NCBI GenBank assembly: GCA_016195385.1
Contig: JACPZS010000112.1
Coordinates: 1-64,000 of the forward strand
Direction: 5' to 3'
From: Verrucomicrobiota bacterium
GTDB taxonomy: Bacteria > Verrucomicrobiota > Verrucomicrobiia > Limisphaerales > JACPZS01
DNA: 64,000 bases
In this document: piece by piece, positions 10,360 to 21,533 of the stretch
Numbering within the stretch: position 1 is the stretch's first letter
How the letters are laid out: every line of letters starts with the position of its first letter
The notes under the pieces: generated by a model
Seen by the model: the letters and a program-made list of their open reading frames with translations, nothing else
Told to the model about the DNA's origin: nothing
Databases searched by the model: none
Program-made: the position numbers and the translations under genes

Positions 10360-13284
10360 TTACAACGGAGCGCAGGGTGGTGTGTGTCGCCGCCGGCCAG
10401 CCGGAGCACGGTCGGAAACTTGTGATTGGCCGTGAGCCTGACCTCGAACAATCCATTTCCTGCCCTCTTCCAGCAGCAACATCGCAAGCGCGAAAGGCAG
10501 CATGAACAGCCATGCCGCGAGCGGAATGGGCGCGGTGCCAAAAACGGCGTTGCCCCACGGCGAGTAATCAATGAGCAGGGTGAGAGTGACTTCAACCGCG
10601 ATGCCCAGGAGAATCAGCGGATTGCGGAACAGGCCGAAGCGAAGGACGGACTCGCGCCGGCTGCGACAGAGGAGGACGTTCACCACCTGCATCACAATGA
10701 TGGCGGTCAGGCATGCGGTCGTGGCCTGCCGATAGAGCGGCGCGTTCGCGGCGAGTGATTCGCCGTAGTTCCAACCGCCGGACTTCAACACGAAGAAAAA
10801 CGCAGCCATCGCGCCAGCGGCTTGCAGGAGTCCAAGCCAGAGGTAGGCGCGGGCGATGAGCGCGAAGTTGAGCAATCGTTCGGTCCGCGGGCGCGGCGGC
10901 TGACGCATCGTCTGTGGGTTCGATGGCTCGGCGCCGAGCGCGAGCGCGGGCACCATGTCCGTGCCCAGGTCCACGGCGAGGATTTGGATGATGGTCAGCG
11001 GCAGCGGAATTTTGAAGAGCACGAAAGCCAGATACGGCACCAGTTCCGGGATGTTCGAGGTGAGGATGTAGGCGAGGAATTTGCGGATGTTGGCATAGAC
11101 CGCGCGGCCTTCCTCAATGGCGGCGACGATGGTGGTGAAGTTGTCGTCGAGCAGGATGATGTCGGAGGCTTCGCGCGCCACGTCGCTGCCGCAACGGCCC
11201 ATCGAGATGCCGATGTCCGCCTGCTTCAGCGCGGGCGCGTCGTTCACACCGTCGCCGGTGACGGCGACAACTTCCTTCTTTCGCTTCAGCGCGGTGACGA
11301 TGCGCATCTTCTGATCGGCGGCGACGCGGGCGAAGAGAACTTCCGGGGCGTCGAGGGCGAGTTGGAGTTGTATGTTGGAGAGGCGGCGAAGCTGGTCGCC
11401 GGTGATGACCGAAGGCTGCGCGGACTTCACCAGGCCAATGGTCCGCGCGATGGCAACGGCGGTGTGCGGGTGATCACCCGTCACCATGATGACCCGGATC
11501 CCGGCCTCACGGCAGCGCGCGATGGCGGCAGGCACCTCGGGTCGAGGCGGGTCTTCGAGGCCGACGAGGCCGGCGAAGGTGAGATGCTCTTCCAACTCGT
11601 GCATTTCGAGGCCGCGATGGACCCGTTCCCCCTCACCCCGGCCCTCTCCCCCAGGGAGAGGGAGAACGGCATCCCGTCGTGGGCTAAAGACGGGAGTGCT
11701 CGACGGATCGCTGGGCGGCGAAGTTTTCCCCCTCTCCTTGGGGGAGAGGGCCGGGGTGAGGGGGAAGGGCGCTCCCGAAGCTGTCAGCGCGTCGGGCACC
11801 TGTCTCCACGCCAGCGCCAGCACGCGCAATCCTTCGTTCGCCATCTCGTTCTGCGCCGTGACGATGCGCGCCCGCCACTCGCCGTCGAGCGCCGCCGTCC
11901 CGTCGCTCACCTCCACGTGCTCGCACAACGGGAGCACGGCTTCCGGCGCGCCCTTGATGAAAAGCACGTTGCCCTCCGCGCCCTCGTGCAGGGTGGACAT
12001 GCGCCGCCGTTTCGAGTCGAAGGGGATTTCGTCAAGACGCGGGCGCTCGATGGCGCCAGGGATGATGTCCTCCGCCAACTCGACCAGCGCGACTTCCAAC
12101 GGATCGCCGAGCCACAGCCGCCCGCCGTTCTGCACCGTCGGCTTCAAGTTGTGCGACTGGCGCGCAATCTCGAAAAAGCGTCGATGCGTGCCTGACAGCG
12201 AATGCACTCGCGCTTCGTCCGATGCCTCGACCCTTTGGTCGCCAAGCCACAGTCGCTTTGCCGTCAGCCGATTCTCCGTAAGCGTGCCGGTTTTGTCCGT
12301 GCAGATCACCGTCGCCGCGCCCAGCGTTTCCACCGCGGGCAGGTGTCGCACGAGGGCGTTGCGTTTCGCCATGCGCTGCGAACCCATCGCCAGCGCGAGC
12401 GTGAGCGTGGGCAGCAATCCCTCGGGCACGTTCGCGACAATGATGCCGATGGTGAAGATGAAATTGGTCCAGAACGGCAGTCCGATGGCGCGTCCGATGA
12501 AGAAGAACACCACGCCCATTCCCAGCGCCAGCAAGCCAACGAGCCGGCTGAGGCGGACGACTTCCTTCTGCAAGGGCGAGAGCGGCTCCCTGGCTGCCTG
12601 CGTGAGGTGGGCAATCTGGCCGAACGCCGTCTGCATACCCGTGGCGAACACCAGCGCTGTCGCTTCGCCCGACACGACGGACGTGCCGGCCAGCAGCACG
12701 TTGCTGCTATGGAGAAAATCCGGTTCGTCCGAAGTGTTTGCATCGCGCGAATGCGGCAGCGACTCCCCGGTGACCGTGGCATTGTTGACGCGCAGAGCGA
12801 ACGCCTCGATGACGCGGCAGTCGGCCGGCACGATGTCGCCGGCTTCGAGGAAGAGCACGTCGCCGGGAACGAGGTCGGAGGCGGGCGCCTGCGTGGCGCT
12901 GGCATCGCGCCGCACTTTGACCTGCTGCGGCAACAGACGTTGCAATGCGTCCAGGGCCCGCTCCGCACGATACTTCTGCCAGAAGGAGAACGTGCCGTTG
13001 ATGATAATCACCCCGACGATGGCAAAGCCCAACGCGAGCATGCCCTGACCCGGCTCGCGCGCCTCCGCGACGAACGCCAGCGCCGCCGCCACCCAGAGGA
13101 TGATGGCGAAGAAGTGGGTGAAGCTTGTGAAGAAGCGTCGCAGCAAAGGCTCGCGCTGCACGGCCTCGAGTGCATTCCGGCCAAATTCCCGCAGCCGGCG
13201 AGCCGCCTCGACCGCCGACAATCCTTCCGGCCCGCTCTGCACGCTGGCGAAGGACTCCTCGACGGTGAGGTGTTGGATTCTCAC
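10360..13284 (-). CDS. Cation-transporting P-type ATPase (P2-type, Na/K-like TM4)
   Basis: The 974-residue protein has the P2-ATPase order: cation_ATPase_N, membrane pair, actuator domain with [10 protein letters not shown]4 motif [10 protein letters not shown], phosphorylation motif [10 protein letters not shown] (Asp near residue 329), nucleotide domain with KGAPEAVL, hinge [10 protein letters not shown] and [20 protein letters not shown], then C-terminal spans. The [21 protein letters not shown] context resembles Na/K- and H/K-type pumps more than Ca pumps, but the ion is not certain. A 47-codon palindromic repeat is inserted in frame just before the P domain (11626-11766). The gene starts 6 bp after fdh and ends the operon. 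The last ~20 residues are unusually basic and His/Pro-rich. Confidence 0.9.
11626..11766. repeat. 141-bp palindromic element, copy 1, in frame inside the P-type ATPase
   Basis: The ends are perfect 25-bp inverted repeats, 11626-11650 (TTCCCCCTCACCCCGGCCCT...) and 11742-11766, enclosing 91 bp. At 141 bp it is exactly 47 codons and keeps the ATPase frame. It is translated as [13 protein letters not shown] at one end and GGEGRGEGE at the other. A second 141-bp copy lies in the PEP synthase gene. It falls between the nucleotide-binding and phosphorylation domains, where a surface loop could tolerate it. Confidence 0.92.
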
Positions 13285-18851: not shown

Positions 18852-21533
18852 TTATCGCTTCAAGGCGCGTTCCTTTTCAAGGATGGCGACCGTCGTCTTT
18901 ATAACGGTGTCGGGATTGAGCGAGATGCTGTCAATGCCTTGCTCGACCAGGAACTGGGCGAAGTCCGGGTAATCGCTCGGCGCCTGGCCGCAGATGCCGA
19001 TCTTTCGCTTCTTCGCACGGCAGACGGCGATGACCTGGGCGATCATCTTCTTCACCGCGGCGTTCCGCTCGTCGAAGATCGGCGCGACGATCTCGCTGTC
19101 GCGGTCCACGCCGAGGATGAGCTGCGTAAGGTCGTTCGAGCCGATGCTGAAGCCGTCGAAGATCTCGGCAAACTCCGCGGCGAGGATGACGTTGCTCGGA
19201 ATCTCGCACATGACGTAAATCTCCAGTCCGTTGACGCCGCGCTTGAGGCCATGCTTCTCCATCTCGGCCTGGACGCGCCGGCCTTCCTCGACCGTGCGGC
19301 AGAAGGGAATCATCAGCTTGAGGTTCGTCAGGCCCATCTCCTCGCGGACTTTCTTGACCGCGCGGCACTCGAGCGCGAAGCCGGCCTGGTAGCGGGGGTT
19401 GTAGTAGCGGCTGGCACCGCGGAAGCCGATCATCGGATTCTCTTCGGCCGGCTCGTAGGCGCGTCCGCCGATGAGGTTGGCGTATTCGTTCGTCTTGAAG
19501 TCGCTCAACCGGAGAATGACGTCCTTGGGAAAAAACGCGGCGGCAATCATCGCGACGCCCTGGGCCAGCTTATCGACAAAGAACTGCGGCTTGTCTGTAT
19601 AGCCGGCGGTGAGCGCATCGATCTGGGCGCGAGTGGCGGGGTCGAGATTGGGAAGCCGTGGTTCCCCCTCACCCCGGCCCTCTCCCTCAGGGGGAGGGAG
19701 GATTGCATCCCGCTTTTGCACGAAGTCGGACGCGCTGGATTGTTCGACACGCGGCGAATGTTTCCCCCTCTCTCCCAGGAAGAGGGCCGGGGTGAGGGGG
19801 AAGGAAACATTCGCACGAGGCAAGGCGCGATCGTTTCGATCGTAATCGATCAACGCCAGCGGATGGATCTTGATGTAGTTGCTGATGATGAATTCCTCGC
19901 GCGCCAGACCGACACCGTCATTTGGAATGAAGCTCAATGAGAACGCCTCTTCGGGGTTGCCCACGTTCATCATCACCTTGGTGCGCGGGCGGGCCAGTTC
20001 GTTCAGGTCGGCGCGCTGCACTTCGAACTTCAGCTTGCCGTCGTAAACAAATCCCACTTCACCCTCGGCGCAACTCACCGTGACCATCTGCCCGTCCTTC
20101 AACACTTCCGTGCCTCGCTCCGTGCCGACAATGGCGGGCACGCCGAGTTCGCGGCTCACAATGGCCGCGTGACACGTGCGCCCGCCGCGATTGGTGATGA
20201 TGGCCGCCGCCTTCTTCATGATCGGCTCCCAATCGGGGTCGGTCTTGTCCGTGACCAGCACCTCGCCCTGCTTGAACTGCCCGATGAACTGCGCGCTCGG
20301 GATCACACGGACCGGACCGACGGCAATCTTCTCGCCGACGCTGCGCCCGGTGACGAGCACGGGGCCGCGTTGCTGGAGCTTGTAGCTCTCGACAACCTCG
20401 ACCGGCTTCCGCGACTGCACCGTCTCGGGCCGCGCCTGCACGATGAACATCTCGCCGGTGTGGCCGTCCTTGGCCCATTCGATGTCCATCGGCACGGACT
20501 GGCCGCGCTTGGCGGAGTAGTGCTCTTCGATGAGACAGGCCCAGCGCGCGAGCTGGAGGATCTCGTCATCTCTGATGGCGAACCTTATGCGGTCACCGGG
20601 TGAGACCGGGACATTCTTCACCATCTTCCCGCCGCCGATGTCATAGATGAGTTTGAATTCCTTTGTGCCAACAATTTTCTGGAGGATGGGCCGGTGGCCG
20701 GTCTTCAGCGTGGGCTTGAAGACGTAAAATTCATCAGGGTTCACCGAGCCCTGCACGACGTTTTCGCCCAGGCCATAGGCCGCGTTGATGAGCACGACGT
20801 CGCGAAAGCCGGTCTCGGTGTCGAGGGTGAAGATGACGCCGCTGCTGGCAAGGTCGGCGCGCACCATCTTCTGCACGCCGATGCTGAGGGCGACCTTGAA
20901 ATGGTCGAAACCTTTGTCCACGCGGTAGCTGATCGCGCGGTCGGTGAAGAGCGACGCGAAGCAACGCAGACAGGCGTTGATGAGTTCGAGATGACCTTGC
21001 ACGTTGAGATACGTCTCCTGCTGTCCGGCGAAACTGGCGTCCGGCAAGTCCTCCGCCGTCGCACTCGAACGCACCGCGACATCGACCGGATGAAGCTGCC
21101 GTCCCTTGAGAGAATCGTAGGCGGTGGTGATCTCCTTCTCCAAATCCAGCGGGCATGCGGCCCCAAGAATGAGATTGCGAATCTGACTCCCGCGCTTGCG
21201 CAACTCCCCGACGTCGCGCGTGTCGAGACCGGCGAGCGTCTGGCGGATCTTTTCCTCGAGCCCCGCCTCGCGCAACAGATGCCGGTACGCCTCCGCCGTG
21301 ATGGCAAATCCGTTCGGCACCTTCACGCCCTGCGGAGTCAGCGCGCGATACATCTCGCCCAGCGAGGCGTTTTTCCCACCGACCAGCGGCACGTCGTCGA
21401 TGGAGATGTCGGCGAACCATTTGATGAATCGCGGAATCCCCGCCCCTTGAGAATTTGTCTTGCTTGGGGACTTAACTTTCAGAGCGGTGGATCTCGCGGG
21501 AATCTTGGATTTGGGAAACGCGGTTGCGGGCAT
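18852..21533 (-). CDS. ppsA: Phosphoenolpyruvate synthase
   Basis: The 893-residue protein has a PPDK/PEP-synthase N-terminal ATP-binding domain (VPLVGGKNASLGEMYRAL near residue 45, SSATAEDLPDASFAGQQETY near 155). The phosphohistidine domain has GGRTCHAAIVSREL (His near 454) and the C-terminal PEP-binding barrel has FSIGSNDLTQL and GICGQAPSDYP. It converts pyruvate and ATP to PEP, AMP and phosphate, feeding gluconeogenesis. E. coli PpsA is about 790 residues; the excess is an N-terminal extension of about 35 residues and a 47-codon palindromic repeat (19662-19802). It heads a tight four-gene run with the acyl-CoA synthetase, FDH and the P-type ATPase. Confidence 0.95.
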   Translation of the reverse strand: MPATAFPKSKIPARSTALKVKSPSKTNSQGAGIPRFIKWFADISIDDVPLVGGKNASLGEMYRALTPQGVKVPNGFAITAEAYRHLLREAGLEEKIRQTLAGLDTRDVGELRKRGSQIRNLILGAACPLDLEKEITTAYDSLKGRQLHPVDVAVRSSATAEDLPDASFAGQQETYLNVQGHLELINACLRCFASLFTDRAISYRVDKGFDHFKVALSIGVQKMVRADLASSGVIFTLDTETGFRDVVLINAAYGLGENVVQGSVNPDEFYVFKPTLKTGHRPILQKIVGTKEFKLIYDIGGGKMVKNVPVSPGDRIRFAIRDDEILQLARWACLIEEHYSAKRGQSVPMDIEWAKDGHTGEMFIVQARPETVQSRKPVEVVESYKLQQRGPVLVTGRSVGEKIAVGPVRVIPSAQFIGQFKQGEVLVTDKTDPDWEPIMKKAAAIITNRGGRTCHAAIVSRELGVPAIVGTERGTEVLKDGQMVTVSCAEGEVGFVYDGKLKFEVQRADLNELARPRTKVMMNVGNPEEAFSLSFIPNDGVGLAREEFIISNYIKIHPLALIDYDRNDRALPRANVSFPLTPALFLGERGKHSPRVEQSSASDFVQKRDAILPPPEGEGRGEGEPRLPNLDPATRAQIDALTAGYTDKPQFFVDKLAQGVAMIAAAFFPKDVILRLSDFKTNEYANLIGGRAYEPAEENPMIGFRGASRYYNPRYQAGFALECRAVKKVREEMGLTNLKLMIPFCRTVEEGRRVQAEMEKHGLKRGVNGLEIYVMCEIPSNVILAAEFAEIFDGFSIGSNDLTQLILGVDRDSEIVAPIFDERNAAVKKMIAQVIAVCRAKKRKIGICGQAPSDYPDFAQFLVEQGIDSISLNPDTVIKTTVAILEKERALKR
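19662..19802. repeat. 141-bp palindromic element, copy 2, in frame inside ppsA
   Basis: The same arm as in the ATPase copy occurs at 19662-19686, with its inverted partner at 19778-19802 (one mismatch in 25). The total length is again 141 bp, or 47 codons. It is translated in the same frame as copy 1: FPLTPALFLGERGKHSP at the start and EGEGRGEGE at the end. The middle part has diverged. It lies in a loop between the phosphohistidine domain and the conserved block beginning KLAQGVAMIAAAF. Confidence 0.92.

Follow-up and report, generated by a model that had tools for sequence, protein, structure and literature searches.

The window, a 64,000-nucleotide stretch of a Verrucomicrobiota genome (contig JACPZS010000112.1 of assembly GCA_016195385.1), contains a P-type ATPase gene whose coding sequence carries a 141-bp palindromic insertion in frame. 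Judged by its sequence, this element consists of two BoxC units (also named PIT or TM_ECO) in inverted orientation, because each arm matches that repeat. We consider it very probable that an inverted BoxC/PIT/TM pair entered a P2-type ATPase gene at the hinge loop that separates the N domain from the P domain, and was kept in frame. In-frame palindromes as such are of a kind already known, from the Rickettsia palindromic elements (RPEs) and from the GTAG-REPs of Opitutus. As far as the literature searched shows, BoxC as a recurrent protein-coding insertion outside the Proteobacteria is new. The features of the window are collected in Table 1.

Table 1. The two palindromic copies in the window, the BoxC/TM-like units within them and their host genes
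Feature	Position	Strand	Remarks
Host gene, P2-type cation-transporting ATPase	10360..13284	-	974 aa, intact ORF
Palindromic element, by sequence an inverted pair of BoxC/TM units, in frame in ATPase codons 507-553	11626..11766		141 bp
First BoxC/TM unit, CCCTCTCCC-TGG-GGGAGAGGG-CCG-GGGTGAGGG	11630..11662	-	0 mismatches to consensus (PMC4666352)
Second BoxC/TM unit	11730..11762	+	1 stem mismatch
Host gene, phosphoenolpyruvate (PEP) synthase (PpsA)	18852..21533	-	893 aa
Second 141-bp copy, in frame in PEP synthase codons 578-624	19662..19802		77% identical to ATPase copy
BoxC/TM unit of PEP synthase copy	19666..19698	-	1 mismatch
BoxC/TM unit of PEP synthase copy	19766..19798	+	2 mismatches

The host ORF was assigned to the P2-type cation ATPases with Pfam, and its best solved relatives are Na,K-ATPase and Ca-ATPases. 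The ends of the palindrome are perfectly complementary over 28 nt, as read from the sequence; an earlier note on this DNA had correctly described the terminal arms as perfect but gave their length as 25 bp. Longer arms of 44 nt (11623-11666 and 11726-11769) are 93% complementary. The element folds with a z-score of -10.5, and none of 200 shuffles folded equally well; the palindrome is real. It starts at codon phase 0 of the minus-strand ORF and its 47 codons keep the reading frame. The encoded peptide, FPLTPALSP...GRGEGE, is the one that the earlier note gave. G+C content by codon position is flat inside the palindrome (0.70/0.66/0.70), as expected of foreign DNA, whereas the host gene is periodic (0.67/0.46/0.84).

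Alignment with homologues confirmed the insertion and bore out the earlier claims that the segment is foreign to P-type ATPases and lies between the N and P domains. The segment is absent from all three homologues compared, which belong to other families of the same order and are 65–68% identical overall. The stretch that connects the N domain to the P domain is nine residues long in Na,K-ATPase alpha-3 and 58 in the protein encoded here. Relative to the homologues, the extra segment amounts to about 59 residues and is longer than the palindrome, so about 12 further residues are also extra. The same segment was looked for as a conserved domain in other genera; the homologues compared are without it, and a conserved P-ATPase domain was thus ruled out by the same-order homologues and Na,K-ATPase alpha-3. 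AlphaFold models built from shallow alignments gave mean pLDDT values of 37 and 42, and we therefore make no structural claim.

BoxC was discovered in the 1990s as a palindromic repeat of E. coli and, to our knowledge, is still without an assigned function or transposase. The consensus of TM_ECO, CCCTCNCCC-N3-6-GGGNGAGGG-N3-GGGNGAGGG, describes an intrastrand triplex motif (Holder et al., 2015, PMC4666352), for which BoxC or PIT are the earlier names (PMC4666352). Read 5' to 3' toward the ends of the ATPase palindrome, one arm is CCCTCTCCC-TGG-GGGAGAGGG-CCG-GGGTGAGGG and the other differs by one mismatch; both correspond to the TM_ECO consensus, type B. Both ATPase units and one of the PEP synthase units have at most one stem mismatch to it, and E. 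coli K-12 itself contains a match to the arm with 95% identity over 39 nt. Stem sequence, loop lengths and the type B 'CCG' second loop are the same as in the K-12 repeat. E. coli K-12 likewise has inverted pairs, five in all, but these combine a type A with a type B unit, whereas both units here are type B. Across the genome, 16 of 20 sites fit the TM consensus with no more than two mismatches when a slightly wider loop is permitted, and the remaining four fall outside it even at two mismatches. The TM pattern in its stricter form had no match in a 1.28 Mb Markov control. Literature searches for the arm sequence and the encoded peptides returned nothing relevant. In K-12, TM_ECO is always intergenic, and it was counted in 262 proteobacterial genomes (PMC4666352); a search of that paper met no mention of Verrucomicrobia. 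The pair described here differs in lying within genes and outside the Proteobacteria. Intergenic location describes the K-12 repeats and does not define them, and it does not hold for the eight of about 20 sites in this genome that are in frame within genes.

The second 141-bp copy, in the PEP synthase gene, is missing from the earlier note. It sits in a reading phase identical to that of the ATPase copy, and the insert is absent from all six homologues, out of eight, that could be aligned there. The genome is a draft in 263 contigs and repeats can misassemble, which raises the question of an assembly artefact. We regard this as extremely unlikely: in both the ATPase and the PEP synthase the two flanks continue one homologous gene, the two copies in the window differ by 23%, and in-frame cases recur in independent genomes, some of them common to several species.

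A tally of all copies in the genome and of the frames they use, which the earlier note had proposed, was made by pattern and BLAST searches of the draft contigs. A 22-nt arm pattern with up to three mismatches allowed gave 26 arms, grouped into about 20 sites, whereas the reversed control pattern gave none; such dispersal is in keeping with BoxC/PIT/TM_ECO. Eight sites are in frame within long ORFs that have recognised domains. Their hosts are the P-ATPase, PpsA, a hybrid histidine kinase (where the copy is within HATPase_c), NuoL (62 residues as against a single one at that position in the NdhF chain), an FG-GAP/UnbV protein, two Ser/Thr kinase-TPR paralogues and a DEAD/DUF3516 helicase. Another site, judged by eye, is in what looks like a degraded PIN/VapC-like gene, with a stop inside the element. 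The other 11 are either intergenic or at the end of an ORF. That eight of nine intragenic copies are in frame has a p of about 0.001 if insertion is frame-blind; the excess reflects selection on survivors, because broken genes vanish from view. One phase, LTP.../GEGRGEG, is used at seven of the eight in-frame sites of this genome. A strict frame choice is ruled out, as the HPGPLP, PSPRPSP and ERAGVRG phases are also used in other genomes. By eye, the PIN/VapC-like gene is the only clearly gene-breaking site in this genome. In each of the two Ser/Thr kinase-TPR paralogues one hairpin occupies the corresponding position, and that insertion may be older than the gene duplication.

The earlier note had likened the element to the RPEs. 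The comparison stands insofar as a repeated palindrome is found in frame in unrelated protein genes, as RPEs of about 150 bp are; as a description of the element, the arm match to BoxC/PIT/TM_ECO is better. The element thus appears to work like an RPE, and we claim no family kinship. True membership in the Rickettsia families would fit the similar length (about 150 bp), the in-frame location and the many unrelated genes (PMC10969869), but it is very improbable given that the arms match BoxC/TM instead. The host group is also a different one. A second known class, the GTAG/CGTC-tagged REPs, comprises short palindromes, often dimers, some of which lie in frame in genes (Di Nocera et al., 2013, PMC3733652). 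Among them, the verrucomicrobium Opitutus terrae has the most intragenic GTAG REPs, including those in two uvrA genes (PMC3733652). The present elements are likewise short, often dimeric and in frame within genes; unlike these REPs, their stem is a C-rich/G-rich triplex block, and no GTAG or CGTC tag was recognised by eye at the hairpin end in an alignment of ten copies.

Of 146 genomes sampled from the order, 95 have the arm; copy number ranges from 0 to 287 and is very uneven within genera. Among the matches listed for the exact 22-mer in named genomes are Enterobacteriaceae, Xanthomonadales, Alphaproteobacteria, Myxococcota, Planctomycetota, Acidobacteria, Chloroflexi, Nitrospira and many Verrucomicrobia. 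A similar unit was found in 4424 of 5426 E. coli genomes, and the E. coli lldD-trmL site (K-12 TM 17+18 of PMC4666352) has full, partial and absent alleles. The uneven copy number within genera and the presence/absence alleles in E. coli support the explanation of an inserted BoxC pair.

In-frame cases were also found elsewhere. A sample of 114 arm sites from named genomes included 20 within long ORFs that show coding-like periodicity to either side of the arm, and part of these were verified. In one genus, dxs contains one hairpin in each of two species, and a third species has the empty site; the insert (net +48 bp, or 16 codons) is positioned in the linker that separates Transket_pyr from Transketolase_C. 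In rsmB of the same genus, the unit is again present in two species, in one of them with a nested second unit, and a third is empty. The MetG insert of Gallionellaceae falls within tRNA-synt_1g, and a NuoE-NuoF fusion from Verrucomicrobiia has 62 residues where 9bov_B has five. An ORF with two copies in a Burkholderiales genome carries UvrA domains. Further cases backed by domains or solved relatives are a lipoamide dehydrogenase (in a linker), a HATPase_c kinase and an FtsX-family permease. In-frame BoxC units in core enzymes, common to some species and absent in others, provide comparable empty and filled sites, which make it testable how palindromes move and how often new protein segments arise. 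For annotators, PLTPALSP...GEGRGEGE peptides point to repeat DNA and not to a domain.

In the course of events that we propose, a BoxC/PIT/TM pair would have inserted into the N-P hinge loop of the P2-type ATPase and been retained because it is divisible by three in length and is read in a frame without a stop. The pump would thereby have gained a predicted loop of 47 residues rich in Pro, Ser, Gly and Glu. Insertion was probably roughly gene-blind, with purifying selection leaving copies that are in frame and located in loops, and the peptide loop is probably tolerated rather than useful. The unit itself would be non-autonomous and may spread via a hairpin- or triplex-forming single strand, either in trans by some enzyme or by template switching during replication or repair; we do not rank these two routes. 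We infer mobility from the distribution, because neither a clean target-site duplication (full-length sites by eye, dxs and lldD-trmL, where the empty alleles are diverged) nor a linked transposase (33 Y1_Tnp loci) was found. No clean insertion with a target-site duplication, as sought for a MITE of a DDE transposase, was seen at the E. coli lldD-trmL alleles or at dxs. Compared by eye with these diverged empty alleles, the element replaces about 9 bp in dxs and about 14 bp in lldD-trmL. Replacement, as opposed to clean insertion, would suit an origin in repair or replication slightly better.

The element resembles REPINs, the REP doublets of the REPIN-RAYT system, in having a pair of inverted hairpins separated by a spacer, in being dispersed and in its uneven copy number. 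That it is an ordinary member of this system, moved by a RAYT (Y1 tyrosine transposase) of its own genome, nevertheless seems improbable to us. Three Y1_Tnp genes are present in this genome, and over the 146 genomes arm number and Y1_Tnp number are weakly correlated (Spearman 0.33), a correlation that may reflect genome size. A RAYT gene flanked by the repeat was looked for at 33 Y1_Tnp loci and not found; none has a true adjoining arm and two have partial look-alikes only, which leaves RAYT linkage unsupported. Moreover, one genome with 237 arms has no Y1_Tnp match, and genomes with 25–27 Y1_Tnp have no arm. Many of the pairs in this 237-arm relative are arranged back to back (-+) with a span of about 89 bp, as against the +- pairs seen here.

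A role in DNA or RNA (as triplex, hairpin or mRNA attenuator), with coding as a side effect, might also have kept the unit in place. For E. coli TM units, a stable triplex of the single strand has been shown in vitro (PMC4666352), and the predicted RNA fold is very stable. The same study reports no activity as promoter or terminator, no influence on expression and no triplex signal in vivo (PMC4666352), the host genes are unrelated, and their homologues manage without the unit; such a role is unlikely to be the reason for its retention. Insertion of a BoxC pair retained in frame is the reading that we prefer. It could be widened to the tentative proposal, to which we give somewhat less than even weight, that BoxC/TM is a mobile element common to many phyla, which has repeatedly added in-frame loops to core enzymes (MetG, UvrA, DXS, RsmB, complex I and P-ATPase) through an enzyme or repair route not yet recognised.

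Other repeats accompany the element in this genome. The short repeats TTGGACCTTGGGCA, GATTGGCGATTTCC and CTCAACCCTCAACT flank several sites (those in NuoL, the FG-GAP protein and one kinase-TPR gene, among others), and some of them are translated in frame. Elsewhere, GGACACGGATG-like repeats in inverted arrays surround one element, which is thus a palindrome nested in another.
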